Of a stretch of 11,383 nt of DNA, positions 634 through 11,383 are shown piece after piece (the first letter of the stretch is position 1; the number at the start of each line of letters is the position of its first letter). The notes under the pieces are model-generated. The model made no database searches and was not told where the DNA came from. It saw only the letters and a list, made by a program, of their open reading frames with translations. This stretch comes from Casimicrobiaceae bacterium. Its GTDB lineage: Bacteria > Pseudomonadota > Gammaproteobacteria > Burkholderiales > Casimicrobiaceae. The DNA lies in the NCBI GenBank assembly GCA_955652025.1, contig CATPAO010000351.1, positions 1 through 11,383 on the forward strand, given 5' to 3'. Both the position numbers and the translations under genes were made by a program.

Positions 634-1410
634 CGACGATCGCTCGGCACCGCGGTCGGCGCGCTGCCGGGCGCGGGCGCCGACATCGCGGGGCGGATGT
701 CGTACGCGATCAACAAGAAGTTCTCGAAGGAGCCGGAAAAGTTCGGCACGGGTCACGTCGAGGGCATTGTCGAATCCGGTTCCACGAACAATAGCGCGAT
801 GGCGGGCGCGTCGATCCCGCGCTGGCGTTCGGCATTCCCGGCGACTCGATCACCGCGATCGTCATCGGCGTGCTGTACACGAAGAACATGAATCCGGGGC
901 CGCCGCTCTTCATCAACCCCGCAGAACCTCTACGCCGTTTACCTGCAGTTCGTCATCGCCAACCTGATCATAGTTCCGCTGGGCTATTTGGGCATTAAGG
1001 CGTCGAAGCAGATCCTGAAGGTGCCGCGCAACGTGCTGATGCCGATGATCATGCTGTTCTGCGTCGTCGGCGCATTCGCGATCAACAACACGCCGTTCGA
1101 CGTTGCCGTGATGGTGATTGCATGGTCGCTTTCGTGCTCGAGGAGAACGGCGTACCGATCGCGCCGGCGATTCTCGGTGTCGTGCTGGGCGGCATGCTCG
1201 AGGACAACTTCGTCGTCGATGATCAAGGCCGATGGAGATCTGCTCGCGTTCTGTCATCGTCCCGTCGCGGCGAAGCTCGGGGCAATGACGCTCGCGGTGT
1301 GGTTCCTTCCGATATTGATGCGCCGTCTCCGCCGGCTCGCCGGCGCCTCACCACGCGCGCTGGGCGCGTCTCCGTGGCCGGGCCGGGCGCGACCGAGTTG
1401 CCGCGAATAA
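634..1410 (+). pseudogene. tctA: Relic of tripartite tricarboxylate transporter large permease TctA (3' half)
   Basis: The large membrane subunit of TctABC-type transporters imports citrate and related carboxylates across the inner membrane with a periplasmic TctC/Bug protein. Read across frames, the sequence gives typical TctA blocks in the right order: GALPGAGADIAGRMSYA (from 658), EKFGTGHVEGIVESGSTNN, FGIPGDSITAIVIGVLY (from about 828), VPRNVLMPMIMLFCVVGAFA (from about 1021), FVLEENGVPIAPAILGVVLG (from about 1128) and SMIKADGDLLAF (from 1216). The reading frame shifts near 820 (one base missing), 921 (one extra), 1120 (one missing) and 1215 (one extra). TctA proteins are about 500 residues; only the last 230-240 are present, so roughly the first half is missing. 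No tctB or tctC is seen. The last matching block ends near 1340; the open frame continues to the TAA at 1408-1410. The family call is secure; whether the indels are biological or sequencing errors is not, but the missing 5' half makes it non-functional either way. Confidence 0.88.
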
Positions 1411-1578
1411 CCCGCAGCAGGCACGATTCCCGCGTTAAGCGCACCGCAAGCCCGAGCACTGGCGCAACTCCGCACCGTCGAAGTATCTTACAGTTGCGTT
1501 CGCAAAGCGTGCCAGGGAGCAAAGGCTTCACCGAAGGTTGATCTCAAAACGAAGATTGTAAGTGCCCATCCAGAAGGC

Positions 1579-1969
1579 TCATTTTGATTTCCCGGCGCCC
1601 CATACATTCGGTCCATTTACCTTTGGCGCGGTAATTGCTTTTTTCTCCGGATCACCACCATGCGCCCTGACTGCAGAAATCTGCCTCCCTAGGCAGCTAG
1701 ACGATGACGGCAGTTTGCGGAGCAGCAACGGTCAGTGCATCCGCCGTGACATTCAATTCCTTCTTCAGCGGCAACGCCAACCAGAGCATCGCGATCGGTA
1801 CGATCAACATTGCGAACACGTCCCTGCGGCCCCCACCGTACTGCTGCGGGGAACGGGTCTTGCAGGCTTGATCTCGCGGTACCGAAAGTCCGCCGCGTCG
1901 GCGACGCTCGGCGCTTGCTTTTGTGACCCAACGATGCGATCTTAGCGGCTCGTTTCGCAATCCGCGCAA
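1579..1969 (-). pseudogene. Possible degraded minus-strand gene end, family unknown
   Basis: On the minus strand one frame contains a hydrophobic, membrane-like segment, VFAMLIVPIAMLWLALPL, followed by KKELNVTADALTVAAP, and stops at 1697-1699. The next frame then continues with a hydrophilic tail, DPEKKAITAPKVNGPNVWGA, ending GKSK and a TGA at 1579-1581. The tail looks like a genuine lysine-rich C-terminus of an integral membrane or exported protein. Joining the two would need one frameshift near 1700-1740. I do not recognise the family, and chance open frames are common in GC-rich DNA, so this is a low-confidence call. Confidence 0.22.
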
Positions 1970-2127
1970 TGCGATGTGGACGGGTCAGGGGATTGCGGAA
2001 TTTTCCCGGGCGACGGTTGGGCGATGCCCAGCGCGAACGTGCAGCTTGGAATTTCGAAGTGCCGATCGAATAGCGGATGTGAAAGCGGAATCGGGAAGGG
2101 TAGCTAGTAGCTTTCGTTGCAACGGAT

Positions 2128-2134
2128 AAGGGAG
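2128..2134 (+). promoter_or_regulatory. Ribosome binding site deciding the start at 2144
   Basis: AAGGGAG, extended by further GA repeats, lies nine bases upstream of the ATG at 2144. It supports that ATG over an in-frame TTG at 2117, which would place the signal peptide behind nine extra polar residues. Confidence 0.65.
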
Positions 2135-2143
2135 AGAGACACC

Positions 2144-2875
2144 ATGTTCAGTCCGACTCGTACGGCACTCTATGTCGCCATCGGCGCGATGGCCTTGGCA
2201 GCCAACGAAGCCAACGCCGGATGCAAGCTCATCGGTGGCACCTACGTGTGCGCTTCCTGGATCACAGGGAGCGAGATCTGCCAAGTTGTGTACGATACAC
2301 AGACGACCAATCCCAATCCCGCCAATGTCAGCATCGAGTGCTCCGTCGAGGGAGCCATAGTCACCCCTACGGAGGGTGGTGGAGTCTTTGTCTGTACCAC
2401 CGGTCAGTTGCCCCCCGGCACGTTGACTTGCGGCCCCGGGTTATCTGCAACTACCTCTTCCTCGCTTAGCTCGTTTAGCATGACCGCCGCCGCCACGACG
2501 GGCACGGGCATTGCCAAGAACGAGTGCAAGCACGGCAATGACGTTGGCGCCGATGGCCACACGGACCTAAGCTGCTTCGATTCCTCGCTCGGGATCTTCC
2601 CTCCGCCTCCCCCCGGCGGCTTGTCCGCTTTCGCCACCGACATAAAATGCGACCAGCAGGGCATCTGCACGGGCAGCGCCGAGGTCAATCCTCCCGCGGG
2701 CAGCACGTGCAACGCGAACGGTGGGCCGGTTATCAATTTCACCGCCGACCAATTCGTCGGCACCGTAGATGCCTGCAGCGGCGAAAGCTGCAGGACCTTG
2801 AGCCAGCTGTGCACGCGGAACGGGGAGAAATACGATTGCACGACCATCCCGCCTCCTAGTTCCTGCAGCTTTTAA
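2144..2875 (+). CDS. Secreted cysteine-rich protein, function unknown
   Basis: The 243-residue product starts with a clear Sec signal peptide (MFSPTRTALYVAIGAMALAA, cleavage after ANA at about residue 25). The mature part begins with GCKLIGGTYVC and contains 16 cysteines spread over its whole length, an even number that fits disulfide pairing. Several are followed by short polar loops (GSEIC, VSIEC, GGVFVC, GTLTC, IKC, GIC, DAC, ESC, LC, YDC, SSC). A Ser/Thr/Ala-rich low-complexity stretch at about 105-128 and a run of five prolines near 150 look like flexible linkers between two or three small disulfide-knotted modules. It ends SSCSF. I recognise no family. The protein should leave the cytoplasm and need oxidative folding; the next gene encodes a DsbA-family enzyme in the same orientation, about 390 bases away and separated by a strong stem-loop, so they are probably not one transcript. 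Possible roles such as surface protein, adhesin or toxin-like knot protein cannot be chosen from sequence. Confidence 0.82.
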   Translation: MFSPTRTALYVAIGAMALAANEANAGCKLIGGTYVCASWITGSEICQVVYDTQTTNPNPANVSIECSVEGAIVTPTEGGGVFVCTTGQLPPGTLTCGPGLSATTSSSLSSFSMTAAATTGTGIAKNECKHGNDVGADGHTDLSCFDSSLGIFPPPPPGGLSAFATDIKCDQQGICTGSAEVNPPAGSTCNANGGPVINFTADQFVGTVDACSGESCRTLSQLCTRNGEKYDCTTIPPPSSCSF

Positions 2876-3266
2876 GTTTCGCGGCGCAACAGTCGAGAGG
2901 GCCTCGCCATCTATGTAAGCGCGGCGAGCCGTCCTCGGCCGGAAGCGCCGGCACAGCAGATTGCATCGACCCGGCTGACCCCCGGTCTTCGCCAGTCGCG
3001 GCACCGGGCTGCGACGGCGAAGGATTCGGGGGTCGCGTCTTTTCCGGGCTAGGCGATCGGTCAAGGCCTCATAATACGGCTGTCGATATCGTCCCCATGC
3101 CGTCGCACACGGCGACGATCGGCACGGGGCGGTGACGGCAACGCTGCGCCGTTCGGCTCCGGTTGCGGTTTGCTGACGAAAGCGCCACGCGTCGGTCGGG
3201 CCGTTCGCGGGATTCCCAGCATCGGGTTGAACCCCGCGTCGCACACTCCTCTTTCCAGAGGTCGAG
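2876..3266. other. Intergenic region between the Cys-rich gene and the DsbA-type gene
   Basis: No gene is seen here. It contains the long inverted repeat at 2977-3043 (listed separately). After it, CATAAT at 3070-3075 resembles a -10 element, but no matching -35 element stands 16-18 bases before it, so I do not call a promoter. AGAGG at 3257-3261, five bases before the ATG at 3267, is the ribosome binding site of the DsbA-type gene. Confidence 0.6.
2977..3043 (+). terminator. Long stem-loop followed by TCTTTT, probable terminator
   Basis: The left arm GACCCCCG (2977-2984), CTTCGCC (2987-2993) and GTCGC (2995-2999) pairs with GCGAC (3011-3015), GGCGAAG (3016-3022) and CGGGGGTC (3027-3034). 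Together they give 20 base pairs with small internal bulges around an 11-base loop. TCTTTT follows at 3038-3043. This fits a Rho-independent terminator about 100 bases after the Cys-rich gene. The T tract is short and the stem is long and split, so a structured leader RNA element or protein-binding palindrome is also possible. Confidence 0.5.
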
Positions 3267-4400
3267 ATGAAAGCAGACAAAAAGGGATTTCGAGGATGCC
3301 TTGCGGCGATCGCCAGCGTGCGGCCATTCGCGGCCCCGGCAATCGGCATCTTCCGGCCGCGATGGACCGCGGCTGCGATCGGCGCCCTGATCTTCGCGGT
3401 CGTGGCCGGCGTGCCCGCGGCGCGTGCCCAGACGCTCTCGACCACGGCGCTGGCGGAAGTCAACGGCGTGGCGATCACGGCCAGGGACGTCGAGCGCTCG
3501 CTCGGCGCCAAGCTCTCCCAACTCGAAGAGCAGATCTACACGCTCAAGCGGAACGAGCTCGATGCCCTCGTCGCGCAAAGCCTGCTCGCGCAGGAAGCGG
3601 CGAAGCGCGGCGTGTCGGTCGCCGCCTTAATGGACGACGAAGTGACGTCCAAGGTCGCGCTCGTCACCGAGAAAGAGATCGACGAATACTACCAGGCCAA
3701 CAAGGCCCGGATGCGTGGCGACGAGACAAGCGTCCGTCCGCAGATCCGTTCCCTCCTGCAGCAGCAGAAGCTGACGGCTCGCCAGGGAATCTACCTGGCA
3801 TCGCTGCGGTCGCGGGCGAAGATCGTCGTTCGCCTCGAACCTCCGGCCGCGGCGCGTATCGACGTGGCGATCGCAGGTGCGCCTCTCCGCGGCGCACCGG
3901 ACGCTGCGGTGACGGTCGTGGAATTCTCCGACTTTGAATGCCCGTTCTGCAAGCAGGCGAATGGGACGTTGGCAAAGCTCATGGAAACGTATTCGGGCAA
4001 GATCAGGCTCGTGTACCGCGACTTTCCGCTCGAGAATATTCATCCGCAGGCGCGGCGCGCCGCCGAGGCCGCGCGGTGCGCGCGGGACGGAGGAAAATTC
4101 TGGGAGTACCACGACGTGCTGTTCGTCCAGTCACCGAAGCTTGCGCCCGAAGACCTGAAGCGCTACGCGAGCCAGGTCGGACTCGACGTCGAAAAATTTG
4201 ACACCTGCCTCGCGGGCGGCGCACAAAGCGCACCCGTGCAAAAGGACCTCGATGAAGGCACCCAGCTGGGCATCACGGGCACGCCCGCGTTCTTCATCAA
4301 TGGAAGGTTTCTGAGCGGGGCCCAGCCAATCGAAAGGTTCGCGCGCATGATCGATGACGAACTGGCACGCACCGCCGGCGCTGTCGCCAAGGCGCAATAG
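3267..4400 (+). CDS. Periplasmic DsbA-family thiol-disulfide oxidoreductase with SurA-like N-terminal domain
   Basis: The 377-residue protein would oxidise or rearrange disulfides in exported proteins. A hydrophobic segment at residues 35-49 ending in AARA|Q (cleavage near 54) is a signal peptide with an unusually long n-region. Residues about 60-185 resemble the SurA/PpiC N-terminal chaperone helices (EVNGVAITARDVERSL, ELDALVAQSLLAQEAAKRG). Residues about 195-370 are a DsbA-like thioredoxin fold: VTVVEFSDFECPFCKQ with the active-site CPFC at 225-228, the helical insertion with YRDFPLENIHPQARRAAEAA, and the cis-proline loop GITGTPAFFING with Pro340. Two further cysteines (271 and 314) lie in the insertion, as in BdbD-like proteins. 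The ATG at 3267 has AGAGG five bases upstream; a GTG at 3318 would give a more usual signal peptide but has only a weak binding site. No membrane partner such as DsbB is encoded here. The gene converges on the cyclase relic, whose original end is only 21 bases beyond this stop. The function is secure at family level; substrates are unknown. Confidence 0.94.
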   Translation: MKADKKGFRGCLAAIASVRPFAAPAIGIFRPRWTAAAIGALIFAVVAGVPAARAQTLSTTALAEVNGVAITARDVERSLGAKLSQLEEQIYTLKRNELDALVAQSLLAQEAAKRGVSVAALMDDEVTSKVALVTEKEIDEYYQANKARMRGDETSVRPQIRSLLQQQKLTARQGIYLASLRSRAKIVVRLEPPAAARIDVAIAGAPLRGAPDAAVTVVEFSDFECPFCKQANGTLAKLMETYSGKIRLVYRDFPLENIHPQARRAAEAARCARDGGKFWEYHDVLFVQSPKLAPEDLKRYASQVGLDVEKFDTCLAGGAQSAPVQKDLDEGTQLGITGTPAFFINGRFLSGAQPIERFARMIDDELARTAGAVAKAQ

Positions 4401-4421
4401 CTCCAGACGGCCGGGCCGACG

Positions 4422-6711
4422 CTAACCATTGGTCAGGTGCTCGAACGTCCCGTCCCAATCCGCGGGCGGAGGCGTTTCGCGCAAGGTCCGGCACCGCTCC
4501 CGGATGACGCGGGACGGACCGTCCGTGGGTCATAGCGCGAGGCACTCTCCGAACCGCTCCATGGCGCCGTCCCAGCGCTGGCGGCGGTACGCCTCCATGG
4601 CACTCGCGTAGAGACTCAGCATCTGCGCCTGGTCTCCGGGCAGCGTAGCGCTTGCCACCCCCAGCAGCTCGTAAATCCGCAGCGCCTGCCTGCGGCCCTT
4701 GACCTGGACTTTGTCCAGCTCGCGCAGCAGGAAGCCGTTCCCGATCAGCTCGGCAGTCTCCTCGCCGATCATGATTTCGGTCCCGTATGCCTTGTTCAGT
4801 TGTTCGAGGCGCGACGCGAGGTTCACGCGGTCCCCGAGCACGCCGTAGTTGAAGCGATACCGGGACCCGTAATTTCCGACCAGCCTCGCGCCCGAGTTGA
4901 TGCCGGTGCGGGCGGATAGCGGCGGCCGGCCGATCTTGGCCCACGCCTCCGCGAGCGCGTAACGCGCGTCTCGCATGGCGAGCCGTGCAGGCAAGCTTCG
5001 CGTGGTCGGCCGCCTCGACCGGCGCCCCGAAGATCGCCATCAGCTCGTCGCCGACGTAGGCTGTCAGCGTGCCGTGGTTGGCGAACACGAGCGCGGTCAT
5101 CTTTTCGTAGTACTCGCTCAACACATCGATGATCTCGCTCGGCGAGTAGCGATCCGAGTAGCCCGTGAAGACGACCAGATCGCAGAACAGCACCGAGAGG
5201 GCCCGCTCCTGTCCCCCAAGTGCGCCCTGCTCGGGATTGTTCAGCACCTGCTCGATCACGTCGGGCGACACATACTGCTGGAAGGTTGCCTTGATCCGCC
5301 TGCGCTCGCGTTCTTCGGTCAAGTAGCGATAAACGGTCAGTATCGTGTAGGTCCCCGCGAGGGCCAAGGTCGGGTACACCATGTTGAGCCACACGTGCGC
5401 GTGCACGAAAAGCTGATAGGCGACGCTGACGAAGAGCCCGAAGAGCGTCACGACGAACACCAGCCCGCCGAAGGCGCTCATCCGCGGCAGTGCGGCCATG
5501 ACGAGCAGTGGCAGGACAACGATGGCCAGCAGGTCGAAGATCCTGGACCAGCGCGGTCGGGCGATGAAATTCGTGGTCAGGATATTGTCGATGACCGTGG
5601 CGTGGTTTTCCAGGCCCGGAGACACGGGCCCGAACGGCGTGCCGCGGATGTCGCCGATCCCGATCGCCGTCGCTCCCACCAGCACGATCTTGTCCTTGAA
5701 CGTGCCGCTCGGCAGCTTGCCCCCGAGAATGTCGCTGATGGCGTAGTAGGGAAAGGTCTTCTGGGGGCCCAGGTAATTGATCAGCATCTGCCCGGCCTCG
5801 TCGGTGCGGACGAAGCGATTCCCGATCTGGACCCCTTCGACGCCATCGGGCCTCGCGCGGACCGCGAGCTGCGGCTTGCCCATGAAATGCCAATAGCACA
5901 GGATCGACAGGGGTGGGAACAGGTCCTCTCCGCCCTGGATCATCAACGGCATCCATCGCACGACACCGTCGGGATCGACGGCCACGCTGAAGTAGCCGGT
6001 CGACGCCGCGGCGGCCGTGAACATGTCGAGATTGCCCTGCGGCGCGTAGGCCTTCAGGAAGGGCACCGAGGCAGCGCTCGGGTCCGTGTAGATGACGAGA
6101 GGGTACTTGGAGTCCGCGATGCCGCTGAATTGCCGCTCGATGCTCCCCTCGTCGAGTTTGTGCCCGACCTCCGCCTCGCTCATATGGAAGAAGTAGCCGA
6201 GCACGATCGCGGCCGAAGATCGCTCGAGTGCGCGCCAGCGCGCGATCGTTGTCGGCGTCCAGCCGGCTCTCCCGGAGGAAGTCGGCGAGCTGCGGAACCT
6301 TGAGTTTCAGCGAATCGACCTTGTTCGCCAGTTCATCGACTAAATCCAGCCGCTCGTTCTGGTCGGGCTCCGCGAACGTGATGTCGAACCCAATGGTCTT
6401 GGCACCGTCGCGCGACAGCGCACCGATGAGCGGGCGATTGTCGACCTCGGCCAGGGCCACCGCCCCTCGGCTTGGAGACTCTTCTCGTCGATCACCGCCA
6501 GCACCACCGTGGGGGTGGGCGGAATCGGGCCGCGGGTGCGAAAGCGCAGATCCAGCCAGTTGCGCTCGATCGCGTCGAGAACGGGCGTGTCGACTGCGTA
6601 CAGGGCGATCACGACGCCGATCACGCCCACCGTGAGCGCAGTGGGATTGAGCAGCAGTGACTTCAGGAACGAAAGCGTGAAGCGGCGGCGACGCTTGAGC
6701 GGCGGCTTCAT
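4422..6711 (-). pseudogene. Broken CHASE2-domain class III adenylate/guanylate cyclase
   Basis: The ancestral product, about 760 residues, was an inner-membrane cyclase with a periplasmic CHASE2 sensor. It reads from ATG 6711 (MKPPLKRRRR, membrane segment at residues 24-41) into CHASE2 (GRWPWPRS, GAKTIGFDITFAEPD, GYFFHMSEAEVG, DKIVLVGATAIGIGD, PGLENHATVIDNILT, ending near 5555). Three membrane helices follow (about 5540-5330), then the cyclase domain (about 5205-4690) with metal aspartates at 5179-5181 and 5047-5049 and the YGVLGDRVNLASRLE block with its catalytic Asn and Arg. The frame is broken near 6433 (one base missing), near 6229 (one extra, restoring frame) and near 4985 (one extra). 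A TGA at 4530-4532 then interrupts the tail, but the same frame continues past it with PTDGPSRVIRERCRTLRETP and PPADWDGTFEHLTNG, stopping at 4422-4424. That is the usual end of this family, so the TGA is a nonsense mutation, probably from CGA. The DxxGFT motif reads DLVVFT and the canonical substrate lysine is Ala. The start has only a weak binding site (GGGA). Calling it a pseudogene assumes the base calls are right. Confidence 0.9.
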
Positions 6712-6740
6712 CGGATCCCGACACTATGCATTGCTTGCCG

Positions 6741-6754
6741 ATTCGATATTCGAT
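6741..6754. repeat. Tandem 7-base repeat upstream of the cyclase gene
   Basis: ATTCGAT occurs twice without a gap, at 6741-6747 and 6748-6754, about 30-43 bases upstream of the cyclase ATG at 6711. On the cyclase strand CATAGT at about 6722-6727 resembles a -10 element, so the repeat would sit near the -35 region where a regulator could bind. With only two copies, chance is a fair alternative. Confidence 0.25.
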
Positions 6755-6923
6755 GCGCACCCCGCCGTCGATGGATCGCGGGGGCGCGGCGGCGACGCCG
6801 AAAGCGCAGGCAGCGACAGACTACGATGCGACTGGCGCTAAGGCGCGGGACCTGCCGGCCGCCCGCTGAAGGCGCGGCGCCGGTGACGCATCGCCATGAT
6901 CCGCCCCGCGCGGCAAAGCCCGG

Positions 6924-9900
6924 TCACGGCAGCGCAAGCGTGAATCGGGCGAAGGCCATGCGGCGCGGTTGCAGGGTCGGGTTGCGCACGTCCGTGTCGA
7001 AGAAATTGAAATGCTTGTCGGCCAGGTTGGTGCCGCCGACCGCGATGAAGCCGTAACGATTGGGCAGCCGATACGTCACCGCCGCATCCACGACCCAGAA
7101 CGTCGAGCTGCCGGGTATTCCGCCGACGAACTCACCGTCCTGGTTGACATAGGTTGTCGTTACCCCCGCGCCGAATCCGGAAGGATGAAAGAACTTCGCG
7201 CCCAGCGGGACCCGCTGTGTCTTGAGCAGCACAGGCCGGTCGGTGAGGCCTTCGCTTCGGACCTTCTCGTAGAGGTATTGCGCGCTGAATGCAAACCACG
7301 GATGCGGGGTCCAGAATGCGTAGCCGCGCCCCAGATACTCGATGATTTTCTCGTGGTTCAGAGTCGGCGTCGGGTTTGACGGATCGTCCCCCAATCCGAT
7401 AAACGGAGACTTGACGTCCCGCTTGGAAAACTCTGCCCCGGCGAACACGTCGCGCATGAACTTCTGATCGACCCCGACCCCGTAGCGCCACGACGAGGTG
7501 CCGTTAAAGTCGTCGTAGAACTGGTTGAACCCGGCGACCTGCGTCGGCTCGAGCGTCTGATCCGTCACGAGCGTCCGTTTCAGCACCCTGAACGCCGCCG
7601 CCCGCACCGTCGTGCTCGGCATCGGTTGCCACTCCACGCCGAACTTCGGATTGACCTGGTTCTTGCCTTTGATTTCCAGGCTGTCGCCTTGCAGGAAGTC
7701 GGCGCTGACTCCCGCCGTGAGGATCACGTTCTTCAGCTGCCTGAAATAGGCGTACGCGTAAACATTGGTGTGCTTAACGTCGGTGCTCGCAGTGTCCGTG
7801 ACCTGGAACGGACCCGGACCGTCGGGGGGCGGAATGTCGAGATCGACGATCGTGTCGAGGTGGCCGTTGATGTTGGAATAGCCGACCCCGGTCGTGACGT
7901 TGAACTGCGGCGAGCGGAACAGGTATTGCACTTCGCCGCTCAGCGCCTTTTCGGGCTTGGCGAGAAGGAGGTTCGTAACCGGGAACGCTAATTGGTTGTC
8001 GTTGACCGTGGCTCGCGAACTCTGGTAGATGACCGATGCCAGGACGATCGAATTGGGCGAAAATGTTTGCCGGAATCCGACCCGGGCCATGTCGGTTTCG
8101 GTGTGATTCCGCTCGCCTGGGAAGAAGTCGCTCTCGAAGAAGCGAAGCGCCACGTCGCCCAGCCTGCTGTTGCGGTGTCGGTATTCGGCTTGCACGCTCG
8201 TCTGCGGCGTGAAGTCGTACTGGACGAAGGCATCGACGATGTCGTCCTTCTGGTCGCCATTGATCCGGAATCCGTCGGTCTTGAAGCCGGAGTAGCCGAC
8301 ACTGAACGCCGCCTTGCCGGCCAACCCGGCGATGATGGCGTCCCCGCCCCAGGTGCCGTGCTCGCCGCCCATGCCGCTCAATAGAGCCGTATATCCGTTA
8401 CCGGTGAAAAGCGGATTGAATTCGCTGAAGGACGCCGTGCCGGGCCCTCCGGAGCTGATCAGGGCCAGATTGCTCACGGCCTGCCGCGGCTGGAGAGGCG
8501 TCAGGTTGATCGGCTGCAGGAGTTGCGATTGCAGCAGCTCGCTCACCCGCCCGATCTCCTGGCGCGGCAGCACCGCGTAACTGTCCGAGAGGAATCGGTG
8601 GGCGGAGAAGTTGGTGGGGTCGGCGTTGACCGCCTTGAAGCCTTCGACCAGAGCGAGCTGCTGGAAGCCGAGATCGGTGTAGATGCGCGCCAGGCTCGCG
8701 CTGCGCGCCGCATTGTCCGAGTCGAGCAGCAGCTCCGACCGGTAGACCGCCCGGTTGTCGTTGAGGGCGATGGCCTTTTCCATTTGCTGCAACGCCTCGA
8801 CCGGCCGGTTGGTCGTCTGCTTCAGGATCGCATCGTAAAAATACGCCGTCGGATCCTTCGGATCGAGCTCCTGCGCCATCTTGTATTCGCGCTCGTCGAG
8901 CGGAAAGCGCTTCTCCTCGTAGTAGGTCTTGCCGAGGTAGCTCCGCACTACTGAATTGCCTGGATCGAGACTCGCGGCGATTTCGAGATCGCGGCCGCCC
9001 TCGTCGAGCCTGCCGTCGCGGATTTTCGCTAACCCGAGCCCGAGCCTCGGCAGCGGATCGCCCTGGTCCAGCACGATCGCCTTCTCGAAGGTTTCCCGCG
9101 CTTGCGCGGTCTTGACCTGGAGCAGATAGGCGAAGCCCAGCACCGTCTGGGTTCGCGCCAGATTCGGCTCGAGGGCGACGGCCTTCTGCGCGGCAGCAAA
9201 GGTCGCGTCGAGGTCGCCGAATGCCGAGTTGAGTTCGGCCAGCCGAGCAAAGGCCAGCGCGTTCTGCGGATCGACCTCGACGGCCTTGTCGACGCTCGCC
9301 CGGGCGCGCGGCAGGTCAAAGCGGGCTTGCTGCGCATAGGACAGCGCGATCCACGCGTTGGCTGACGTCGGGTTGTCCGCGACATCCTTCTCGGCAACTG
9401 CCAGCGCCCGATCCTTGTCGTTCTGGACGACGGCGATGATCGCCTGCAGGCTCAACGCATTCGCATCGTTCGGGGCGAGTTGCAGCGCGCGCTCGATGTC
9501 CGCATTCGCGTCGTCGACGCGCCCGACCGCGAGCGAGAGATGCGCGCGATAGCTGAAGAACCGCGGGTCACGGATGTCTGCCGGAGCATTCTCGATGCTC
9601 TGGAATGCGCTCGCGAGGTCGCCCTTCGCGTAGAACTCCGTCGAACGACGGACCATCCCCTGCCAACCGGGGCCTGAGGGGAATTCGTCAGGCCGGAAAT
9701 AGAGGACTGGCGGGTAATACAGTGTCCACTGGACCGCATCTCGCGGCCGCACGACCGTGCGCAGGACCGGAGCTTTCCCCGACTCGGCCACTGCCGACTG
9801 ACCGTTGGCGAGCGAGAGGCTGCCCGCCGAATTCTGGGCCAGGACCGTTCCCTCGAACACGGTGATCAACGCCCTGTCCGGTTCGAGCTCGATGAAAAAC

Positions 9901-10361
9901 TCCGTTCCGCGGACACCGGCGACCGTGAACGGCGTATTCACCTCGAGGCTGCGGGGACCGCGGCTGAAGATGTGGGTCGCACCGCGGAGCAGGTCGACCA
10001 CGCCGGTGGTCTGATCCTTCGGCGCCTCGACCGTAATCGTCGAGTTGGCGTTGAGGCGGAGGACCGACTGATTCAGCAGCGCGACGTCCGCACGGCTCTT
10101 CGTCTGGACGCGGATCGAATCACCCGGGCAGAACGTATCGTTCAACTTCACCGCCTGCCACTGCGCATCGGCGGCCCGCTTCGCCTCCACGGTACCTTGA
10201 ACGGAGACCGCTCTCGCGGGCGCCGGTTCGCACGCCTTTCCGGGTGAGGCGCCCTGAGCATGGACGCCGCCGACCGGGAGTACGGCAACTGCGATCACCG
10301 TGACGATTCGCAATCCCGTGCGGAATCGCGCCAAAACTGCACCAGGTGTCAGATCGTCCAT
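6924..10361 (-). CDS. FecR - TPR - outer-membrane beta-barrel envelope protein
   Basis: The intact 1145-residue protein combines three modules. Residues 1-35 form a signal peptide (RIVTVIAVAVLPVGGVHA|Q). Residues about 50-205 are a periplasmic FecR domain, with VALLNQSVLRLNANSTITVE, then SLEVNTPFTVAGVRGTEFFI and ITVFEGTVLA. Residues about 235-600 are a TPR array of roughly ten helical repeats (for example AFARLAELNSAFGDLDATFA and ALQLAPNDANA). Residues about 645-1145 are rich in alternating aromatic/polar strands separated by polar loops, like the barrel of TonB-dependent receptors, ending GGTNLADKHFNFF then RRMAFARFTLALP. No plug domain or TonB box is seen. The only two cysteines found, 44 and 78, flank the start of the FecR domain and could form a disulfide. 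FecR domains in the classical system relay an outer-membrane receptor signal to a sigma regulator; here no sigma factor is present. The downstream neighbour in the same direction, 212 bases away, is the CHASE2 cyclase gene, suggesting a shared pathway. Start: ATG 10361, with a G-rich site (GGGGGGGA) three bases upstream, which is rather close. Domain calls are confident; the ligand and role are unknown. Confidence 0.92.
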   Translation of the reverse strand: MDDLTPGAVLARFRTGLRIVTVIAVAVLPVGGVHAQGASPGKACEPAPARAVSVQGTVEAKRAADAQWQAVKLNDTFCPGDSIRVQTKSRADVALLNQSVLRLNANSTITVEAPKDQTTGVVDLLRGATHIFSRGPRSLEVNTPFTVAGVRGTEFFIELEPDRALITVFEGTVLAQNSAGSLSLANGQSAVAESGKAPVLRTVVRPRDAVQWTLYYPPVLYFRPDEFPSGPGWQGMVRRSTEFYAKGDLASAFQSIENAPADIRDPRFFSYRAHLSLAVGRVDDANADIERALQLAPNDANALSLQAIIAVVQNDKDRALAVAEKDVADNPTSANAWIALSYAQQARFDLPRARASVDKAVEVDPQNALAFARLAELNSAFGDLDATFAAAQKAVALEPNLARTQTVLGFAYLLQVKTAQARETFEKAIVLDQGDPLPRLGLGLAKIRDGRLDEGGRDLEIAASLDPGNSVVRSYLGKTYYEEKRFPLDEREYKMAQELDPKDPTAYFYDAILKQTTNRPVEALQQMEKAIALNDNRAVYRSELLLDSDNAARSASLARIYTDLGFQQLALVEGFKAVNADPTNFSAHRFLSDSYAVLPRQEIGRVSELLQSQLLQPINLTPLQPRQAVSNLALISSGGPGTASFSEFNPLFTGNGYTALLSGMGGEHGTWGGDAIIAGLAGKAAFSVGYSGFKTDGFRINGDQKDDIVDAFVQYDFTPQTSVQAEYRHRNSRLGDVALRFFESDFFPGERNHTETDMARVGFRQTFSPNSIVLASVIYQSSRATVNDNQLAFPVTNLLLAKPEKALSGEVQYLFRSPQFNVTTGVGYSNINGHLDTIVDLDIPPPDGPGPFQVTDTASTDVKHTNVYAYAYFRQLKNVILTAGVSADFLQGDSLEIKGKNQVNPKFGVEWQPMPSTTVRAAAFRVLKRTLVTDQTLEPTQVAGFNQFYDDFNGTSSWRYGVGVDQKFMRDVFAGAEFSKRDVKSPFIGLGDDPSNPTPTLNHEKIIEYLGRGYAFWTPHPWFAFSAQYLYEKVRSEGLTDRPVLLKTQRVPLGAKFFHPSGFGAGVTTTYVNQDGEFVGGIPGSSTFWVVDAAVTYRLPNRYGFIAVGGTNLADKHFNFFDTDVRNPTLQPRRMAFARFTLALP

Positions 10362-10490: not shown

Positions 10491-11383
10491 TCAATCGGGC
10501 AGCAAGGATACAAATTCCTCGAATTTGCCGTTAGCACCCAATGGCAAATTCTGGAAATAACGGAAATCGATCCGGGCGAAATCGCCCAGATTGCTTCGCA
10601 GTATGGCGGCCAGCGCTGTCTCTTCGCCTTCTGCGAGAGGACGATCCGTCACCAGGCGGAATTCAATCTGATCACGAGCAAGTTGTGCAATTTGATACTG
10701 ACGTACAGGCGCAACCTCGCGGTACTCGGCAAAGCCGACCAAGGGCCAGCGAATTTCCCCTCGCGGCGTCACGAGCATATTCCGGACGCGACCCTGTATC
10801 CGCCGCAAACTCGGCAGGCCACGCCCGCACGGGCAGGGGGCGACTTCTGCGTAATCTTTTAACTCATACCGCAGCAGCGGCATGGCAAACGCGTGCAGCG
10901 TCGTGACCACCACGCGTCCGACGGCGCCTGGCGGGCACGGCGCCCCGCTGGCGTCCACTATCTCGACCAGGAGACTTTCCGACTGAACGTGATACAGGCC
11001 GGACTCCGGGCACTGCAATGCGATGTTTCCCACCTCGTTCGAGCTATAGAGATCGACAACGGGTACTCCAAGGACATTGCGACACAGGTCGCGCGTAGCA
11101 TCGGGGAGGATTTCGCCGACGGTGCGAACTTGACGCAGCCGCGGAAACGCTACGCGATCTGCCTCGAGTCGGCGCAGCACTGCGGCCAGCACCGTCGGGT
11201 AAATCAGCAGATAGTCCGGATCGCGCTGCGCGAGCCACCGCACCTGTTCAACTACATCCGTATCGACGGGAAGCGCAGCGGCTAGCCCGGTGTCAAACAG
11301 GAAATCCGCGGGCGGACCCCAACCGCGACGCCAGGTTCCATCGGGAGTTCGCGTTACTCCGGCACGGATCGCACAGAGTTTCC
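10491..11383 (-). CDS. CapK/phenylacetate-CoA-ligase-like adenylate-forming enzyme (C-terminal part, runs off the window)
   Basis: The visible 296 residues run from the window edge, where the frame is still open, to a TGA at 10491-10493. A GTG at 11243 is inside the protein and not the start: the upstream sequence in the same frame (DGTWRRGWGPPADFLFDTG) is clearly family-like. Characteristic features of the CapK branch of adenylate-forming enzymes are DYLLIYPTVLAAVLRRLE, the TVGEILPDATRDLC helix, the adenine-binding block VDLYSSNEVGNIALQCPE, PLLRYELKDYAEVAPCPCGR with a cysteine pair, LPSLRRIQGRVRNMLVTPRG and a C-terminal lid ending LPLGANGKFEEFVSLLPD with the lysine expected to act in adenylation. 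Such enzymes activate a carboxylic acid as acyl-AMP and pass it to CoA or another thiol or amine; CapK-like members are often found in polysaccharide or lipid biosynthesis loci. The RYxxxD region reads RYELKDYAE, where many relatives have a Gly-Asp. The substrate cannot be told. The start and the P-loop-like motif lie outside the window. Confidence 0.88.
   Translation of the reverse strand, partial: KLCAIRAGVTRTPDGTWRRGWGPPADFLFDTGLAAALPVDTDVVEQVRWLAQRDPDYLLIYPTVLAAVLRRLEADRVAFPRLRQVRTVGEILPDATRDLCRNVLGVPVVDLYSSNEVGNIALQCPESGLYHVQSESLLVEIVDASGAPCPPGAVGRVVVTTLHAFAMPLLRYELKDYAEVAPCPCGRGLPSLRRIQGRVRNMLVTPRGEIRWPLVGFAEYREVAPVRQYQIAQLARDQIEFRLVTDRPLAEGEETALAAILRSNLGDFARIDFRYFQNLPLGANGKFEEFVSLLPD

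Follow-up and report, generated by a model that had tools for sequence, protein, structure and literature searches.

A probable envelope signalling module of the NsrA-CyaK kind, pairing a FecR-TPR-barrel protein with a CHASE2 cyclase, in a Casimicrobiaceae bacterium

Genes at the locus

The stretch of DNA analysed here (the window; 11,383 nucleotides of contig CATPAO010000351.1 from a Casimicrobiaceae bacterium) carries on its reverse strand an open gene for a protein, P0001, in which a FecR domain, tetratricopeptide repeats (TPRs) and a predicted outer-membrane barrel are joined, and, downstream on the same strand and 212 bases apart, a gene for a class III nucleotide cyclase with a CHASE2 domain (Table 1). 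We find that this signalling pair is real and conserved, and of the same kind as the NsrA-CyaK pair of Sinorhizobium meliloti. Our own evidence for such a module consists of the domain architecture, the predicted barrel fold, homology to NsrA, conserved gene adjacency and correlated trees. A first-pass annotation of the sequence had proposed that the FecR/TPR part of the barrel protein touches CHASE2 in the periplasm to set cyclase activity, which is close to the model reported for NsrA-CyaK. Papers are cited below by their PubMed Central identifiers, and what is taken from them refers to the parts of their text that were available to us.

Table 1. Features of the barrel protein gene and the cyclase gene, in positions of the window
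Feature	Position	Strand	Basis
NsrA-like outer-membrane receptor gene, P0001, 1145 residues	6924..10361	(-)	open frame; Pfam; NsrA homologue
Probable signal peptide, residues 1-36	10254..10361	(-)	read by eye from translation
FecR domain, residues 81-173	9843..10121	(-)	PF04773
TPR region, about residues 233-540	8742..9665	(-)	TPR families; helices in model
Most conserved segment, residues 541-655, between TPR region and barrel; contains the RVSELLQSQLLQPI stretch	8397..8741	(-)	
Predicted outer-membrane barrel, residues 656-1145	6927..8396	(-)	model; TonB-dependent receptor fold matches
CHASE2 class III nucleotide cyclase gene, three frameshifts and early stop as assembled	4530..6711	(-)	
CHASE2 domain, more than one frame, internal stops	5512..6615	(-)	PF05226, E 1e-43, with one TGA and one TAG
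Second CHASE2 piece, another frame	6296-6430		
Cyclase catalytic domain, C-terminal half, frame differs from rest	4536..5006	(-)	PF00211, E 9e-10; profile match 565-716 of 752

Architecture and predicted fold of the barrel protein

The first-pass annotation had described P0001 as a FecR domain, TPRs and a plug-less outer-membrane-type barrel in one polypeptide, and this largely holds up, the barrel by prediction. Pfam gives only FecR and TPR families for this protein; a sigma-binding cytoplasmic N-terminal domain was not found in it, and no Pfam match to a plug domain was seen either here or in the relative P0008. PF00593, which is matched in P0008, has no match in P0001 itself in the Pfam scan. 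In the predicted model, however, the C-terminal 490 residues form a barrel of 23 strands, as against about 22 for a TonB-dependent receptor, and the fold matches are indeed TonB-dependent receptors, so that the contrary outcome, in which the last ~500 residues are no barrel, did not occur. Residues 485-542 of the model have a predicted local distance difference test (pLDDT) score below 50.

The segment between the TPR region and the barrel occupies the plug position of TonB-dependent receptors, and is modelled as helix or at low confidence, with a part below pLDDT 50. Here, we noticed that it is the best conserved part of the protein, with a mean column identity over 72 proteins (from 71 of the 78 loci, plus the window protein) of 0.80 for residues 541-655 and of 0.66, 0.60 and 0.53 for the TPR region, FecR domain and barrel, respectively. 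Moreover, its LLQ stretch aligns with a similar stretch of NsrA (hhalign). This segment may serve as a coupling element between the barrel and the periplasmic arm.

Homology with NsrA

A search of plasmid records with P0001 led to nsrA of the Sinorhizobium plasmid pSymB (25% identity over residues 44-534). In direct comparison by BLASTP, P0001 and NsrA share 26% identity over 516 columns (E 2e-18), and 21% in a barrel segment (E 2e-6), while the alignment of the family with NsrA by hhalign has a probability of 99.7 over 982 columns; the homology takes in FecR, TPR and part of the barrel. By Pfam, NsrA contains FecR and TPR domains and CyaK contains CHASE2 and cyclase domains, and in the annotated record nsrA is followed by cyaK on the same strand, in the order found in the window. 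In S. meliloti, perception of signal 1 depends on the outer-membrane receptor NsrA together with the inner-membrane cyclase CyaK; residues 600-1200 of NsrA are described as its beta-barrel portion, and ribosomal protein uL2 has been proposed as the signal (Sorroche 2020, PMC7529298). The same NsrA-CyaK model is repeated in PMC13001267.

The first-pass annotation knew of no described system with this layout, a statement that we can now correct, NsrA-CyaK being homologous and alike in both architecture and gene order. Clusters of Campylobacterota (PMC9239204) and an operon of a LysM-FecR protein with a CHASE2 histidine kinase (PMC5192318) likewise speak against it.

Conservation of the pair

Relatives were collected from one genome per species by an alignment-based scan, which gave 429 confirmed stretches (a single-sequence scan of genome contigs gave none), and since the best 80 of these were taken for analysis, the adjacency figures rest on 80 loci. 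Cyclases were detected in a six-frame search with a CHASE2-cyclase profile built from these loci. How often a CHASE2-cyclase gene lies close by was the measure by which the first-pass annotation wanted its proposal judged, and the answer is 70 of the 80 best loci (a few matches being pieces cut at contig ends), so that homologues mostly without a nearby CHASE2 cyclase are not what we see among them. Where at least 3 kb are available on both sides, a cyclase is present in 42 of 45 loci, within 2.5 kb in 40 and within 500 bases in 28; across the full set, 49 of 80 loci have it upstream on the same strand at a distance of at most 500 bases.

Barrel and cyclase tree distances correlate with r = 0.36 over 59 pairs (those of the 78 loci with a complete cyclase within 2.5 kb), a value reached in 0 of 999 permutations, and with r = 0.74 over the 50 pairs of the usual layout, which were not permuted; shared host descent is uncontrolled in both figures. 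While the six-frame count covers all 80 loci, L018 and L044, for which a longer overlapping frame had been picked, are missing from the table based on open reading frames (ORFs), from the distance test and from the tree. As an indirect indication, 11 assemblies apparently recur between the homologues listed (120 per gene) for the two genes of the window. Taken as observed, the barrel protein and the CHASE2 cyclase are supported as a conserved two-gene unit.

Apart from the barrel protein and the cyclase cluster (72 loci, 125 members, of which 60 score low with the cyclase profile, some of these being cyclic nucleotide (cNMP)-binding or kinase proteins), no neighbour family occurs in more than five loci. 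This bears on another reading, according to which FecR relays to a sigma factor, as in FecI-FecR-FecA, and the cyclase is incidental. Both the FecR domain and the TonB-receptor-type barrel belong to that pathway, but the Pfam domains of P0001 are restricted to those named above, with a probable signal peptide at the start, and no neighbour family other than the cyclase cluster exceeds the five loci given above, though the smaller clusters are unnamed and no search for sigma factors was made. We consider a sigma relay highly improbable and have set it aside.

A common substitute for the cyclase was sought among 20 neighbour proteins from some loci without a close cyclase and a few others, and none emerged. 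At L014 the scan gave a BTAD/NACHT-type regulator and at L063 a cNMP-binding sigma-54 activator; L028 has a glutaminase frame that carries a cNMP-binding domain, and L020 a GGDEF-EAL protein. Separately, one genome (G039) has at locus L104 two NsrA-like barrel genes (3929-7222 and 10167-13463), which are separated by a few kb and share a single CHASE2 cyclase in their neighbourhood, and its third NsrA-like copy (L102), elsewhere in the genome, has no cyclase within the 19 kb examined.

The cyclase gene of the window

The first-pass annotation placed the barrel gene directly upstream of a CHASE2 cyclase; the genes do adjoin on the same strand, but the cyclase is broken, which had gone unmentioned. 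Set against the intact cyclase of G018, which belongs to the same genus, that of the window has three frame changes and stops about 36 codons early, whereas the cyclase frame is open in L101. Because of these three frameshifts and the early stop, the window represents a family member with a broken partner as assembled, and its cyclase gene, judged from the sequence, is non-functional in this form, through either decay or an error of sequencing or assembly. Among the homologues listed, the closest cyclase has 81% identity across the searched part, and many are full length at about 760-780 residues.

It seems to us an even bet that the pair is dead in this genome, the cyclase being a true pseudogene and the barrel protein, itself intact, either an orphan or a user of one of two other CHASE2 proteins. 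The damage falls within about 2.2 kb, while the neighbouring barrel gene is open over 3.4 kb and the next gene of 1.1 kb is open too; further CHASE2 places are found in the same genome on contigs C124 and C73; and upstream, a TctA transporter gene is represented by its end only. Against this, a draft bin of 400 contigs may carry local errors, and with the closest listed cyclase at the identity given above there is no near-identical copy to decide the matter. A dead pair in the window would be compatible with the reading of the family that we prefer, that of a signalling module.

Predicted nucleotide product

The catalytic residues (two metal-binding Asp, Asn and Arg) are present in the pieces of the window cyclase, and are conserved among the close cyclases as well (D in 111, D in 111, N in 109 and R in 110, for the 111 of the 120 closest cyclases listed that are longer than 680 residues). 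More conspicuously, Lys stands at the first purine-binding position in none of these 111 proteins, whereas Glu does in 67, and a Glu-Gly pair is found in 61. The window copy has Ala-Gly at the purine-selecting pair, and thus neither the Lys of adenylate cyclases nor the Glu of guanylate cyclases. In cyclases of the usual layout (n = 50), Asp (28) and Asn (13) predominate at this position, and all 49 listed residues are D, N, E, G, A or T.

Guanylyl cyclases carry Glu in place of this Lys, and the guanylyl cyclase Cya2 of Synechocystis has an E-G pair (PMC4215837, PMC4886424), as do the 61 proteins just mentioned. The window copy differs from Cya2 in its Ala-Gly, and our own mapping places a serine in the alignment where a tyrosine is stated for Cya2. 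Given the missing Lys and the frequent Glu-Gly pair, cyclic AMP (cAMP), which the first-pass annotation had named, is not to be assumed as the product, better read as a cyclic nucleotide.

ORFs resembling cNMP-binding proteins lie within 7 kb in 25 of the 80 loci, a figure with no background rate for comparison, and the one at L038 is a Crp-type regulator by Pfam; such ORFs are candidate readers of the nucleotide. In addition, L031 has near the pair a fusion of an MMPL-type transporter with cNMP-binding and GGDEF domains (13078-16311), and a protein of almost the same length, with a cNMP-binding-like match, is found at L023 (18285-21515).

Distribution and mobility

Carriers of the barrel protein belong to Thermodesulfobacteriota, Pseudomonadota, Nitrospirota, Rokuibacteriota, Planctomycetota (Brocadia), Nitrospinota and others; on some entries of the tree the label 'Myxococcota' was set aside, the same records being named Deltaproteobacteria. 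Closer to the window, the distribution is patchy, with a homologue at E 1e-60 or better in 4 of 41 genomes of the relatives search and in 2 of 22 genomes of the genus. In a FastTree phylogeny, from which L018 of the same genus is missing, the protein of the window clusters with two sequences from Rokuibacteriota (support 100), apart from the branch of Nitrosomonadaceae and gammaproteobacteria. Transfer is the simplest account of such a distribution and tree placement, and the module has probably moved horizontally. Genomes in which an NsrA relative adjoins a CHASE2 cyclase bear the names Nitrosomonas, Nitrospira, Methylobacter, Desulfosarcina, Brocadia and others, for which reason symbiosis was probably not what the pair arose for.

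FecR and CHASE2 beyond the barrel protein

Of 27 FecR places in the 22 genomes of the genus, 17 have a CHASE2 place no more than 5 kb away, as do 14 of 28 in 46 genomes from the class, with about 0.2 expected in each (a rough value, which assumes uniform placement and a genome of 3.4 Mb). The window genome is part of both samples, and without it the counts are 15 of 24 and 12 of 25, respectively. Seen from the other side, 17 of 33 CHASE2 loci in the genus and 14 of 50 in the class have a FecR place within 5 kb, and many CHASE2 genes show none.

Six of these neighbourhoods were examined, with 9 of their 12 proteins, from all but L109, scanned against Pfam. Two (L108 and L110) pair a LysM-FecR protein with a CHASE2 histidine kinase, one (L112) an 827-residue FecR protein with a CHASE2 cyclase, and one (L113) a 1153-residue FecR-TPR protein with a CHASE2 place downstream. 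At L111, CHASE2 is fused to a SpoIIE phosphatase (915-4166); the FecR place, at a distance of about 1.6 kb from that of CHASE2, has its frame interrupted by a stop, and the scanned neighbouring frame is without a Pfam match. A second FecR-CHASE2 neighbourhood occurs in the window's own genome (G000; contig C73, L105, 952-1227 and 2859-3320), with a TGA inside the FecR frame.

The recurring element is FecR with CHASE2, while anchor and output vary. As the pairing lies far above chance with differing anchors and outputs, FecR is possibly a general CHASE2 partner, and a full-text literature search, outside which most subscription papers fall, found no such proposal. A bolder version, which we hold only tentatively and rate at somewhat under even, is that FecR serves as a general periplasmic CHASE2 ligand with interchangeable anchors (barrel, LysM) and outputs (cyclase, histidine kinase, perhaps SpoIIE phosphatase), that in the barrel branch the highly conserved segment 541-655 acts as the moving part in place of the plug, and that the clade of the window makes cGMP or another nucleotide that is not cAMP. 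Against a general role stands SMc02177 of S. meliloti, a FecR protein whose locus number adjoins that of the CHASE2 protein CyaD1 (SMc02176) and which was not required for perceiving the plant signal tested (PMC5498481).

Proposed mechanism

We think it quite probable that the locus represents a two-gene module for envelope signalling of the NsrA-CyaK kind, patchy in its distribution and probably spread by horizontal transfer, which leads from a barrel receptor to a CHASE2 cyclase. The exported protein would be anchored in the outer membrane by its plug-less TonB-receptor-type barrel, whose loops would meet an external ligand, while the TPR stalk and the FecR domain would hang in the periplasm. 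Ligand binding would then be passed on, most likely by the FecR/TPR part touching the periplasmic CHASE2 domain, upon which the inner-membrane class III cyclase would make a cyclic nucleotide, presumably read by a Crp-type or other cNMP-binding protein.

Alternatively, the barrel protein could be an exporter or uptake porin that is merely co-regulated with the cyclase and never touches it, which we regard as unlikely. Conserved neighbours can share control without touching, the barrel fold is a transporter fold, and some homologues have no cyclase nearby; in S. meliloti, however, CyaK signalling needs NsrA (PMC7529298), and LysM-anchored FecR proteins pair with CHASE2 histidine kinases (the two neighbourhoods described above; PMC5192318). 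From these LysM pairs it follows that the shared element is FecR with CHASE2, and not barrel with cyclase.

Several observations weigh against the signalling module. No cyclase was detected in 10 of the 80 loci; in seven of these, at least one flank offers little DNA, and the other three (L020, L085 and L090) lack one in the six-frame profile search despite 6-10 kb on both sides. L102 and L103, two loci in genomes of the same order, are also without it, and the layout varies, with the cyclase upstream, downstream or on the opposite strand. Similarity to NsrA is low within the barrel, and the loops there, with a conservation of 0.538 and 0.531 on the two sides, are no more variable than the strands (0.532), so that conservation gives no support to a contact between loops and ligand. 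To these come the broken cyclase of the window itself and the literature search, which in the text available to it gave no experiment on this type of protein outside rhizobia.

What CHASE2 senses was stated as unknown in 2016 (PMC5192318), and the general FecR ligand reading, if true, would answer this. With a partner family that accompanies CHASE2 in many bacteria and one experimentally supported case, binding of FecR to CHASE2 is now a testable question. It also emerges that a plant-signal receptor of S. meliloti has relatives beside CHASE2 cyclases well beyond rhizobia. As far as the literature search shows, the breadth of the family, the regularity of FecR with CHASE2 and the unexpected base-selecting residues are new, the NsrA-CyaK pair itself being already known.

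Other genes in the window

Convergent with the cyclase gene, the gene at 3267-4400 (+) encodes a protein of 377 residues whose single chain joins a SurA-like N-terminal domain to a DsbA/thioredoxin domain. Further along, a remnant of a TctA tripartite tricarboxylate transporter gene lies at about 660-1410 (+), with a Pfam match to positions 362-405 of 423 in one frame and earlier parts, by eye, in other frames. At the opposite end, a partial PaaK/FlxY-like AMP-forming CoA ligase (10491-11381, (-)) is cut by the window end.

Comparison with known systems

The NsrA-CyaK pair resembles that of the window in having FecR, TPR and barrel in a single exported protein of about 1150-1200 residues, with a CHASE2 cyclase next to it on the same strand. 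The founding paper on this pair is reportedly Garnerone 2018. The two differ in that identity is only about 25%, that CyaK has a Lys at the adenine-selecting position where the clade of the window has none, that the genes overlap by one base in S. meliloti instead of standing apart, and that the window cyclase is broken.

Most CHASE2 cyclases of Campylobacterota cluster with a FecR outer-membrane protein, and these clusters are thus alike in setting the two side by side, though, compared by description only, they contain a TPR protein and a phosphodiesterase as further genes (PMC9239204, where the components of FecA-FecR-FecI are also named). The BiofilmReg operon of Burkholderia, composed of a response regulator, a LysM-FecR protein and a CHASE2 histidine kinase, similarly pairs a FecR protein with a CHASE2 inner-membrane sensor, but has a LysM peptidoglycan anchor and not a barrel, and a histidine kinase and not a cyclase (PMC5192318).

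With FecA-FecR-FecI, finally, P0001 has in common an outer-membrane barrel and a FecR part. In that iron-citrate signalling system, however, the barrel is one protein and FecR another, with a sigma factor as the output, whereas in P0001 the barrel and FecR are fused.

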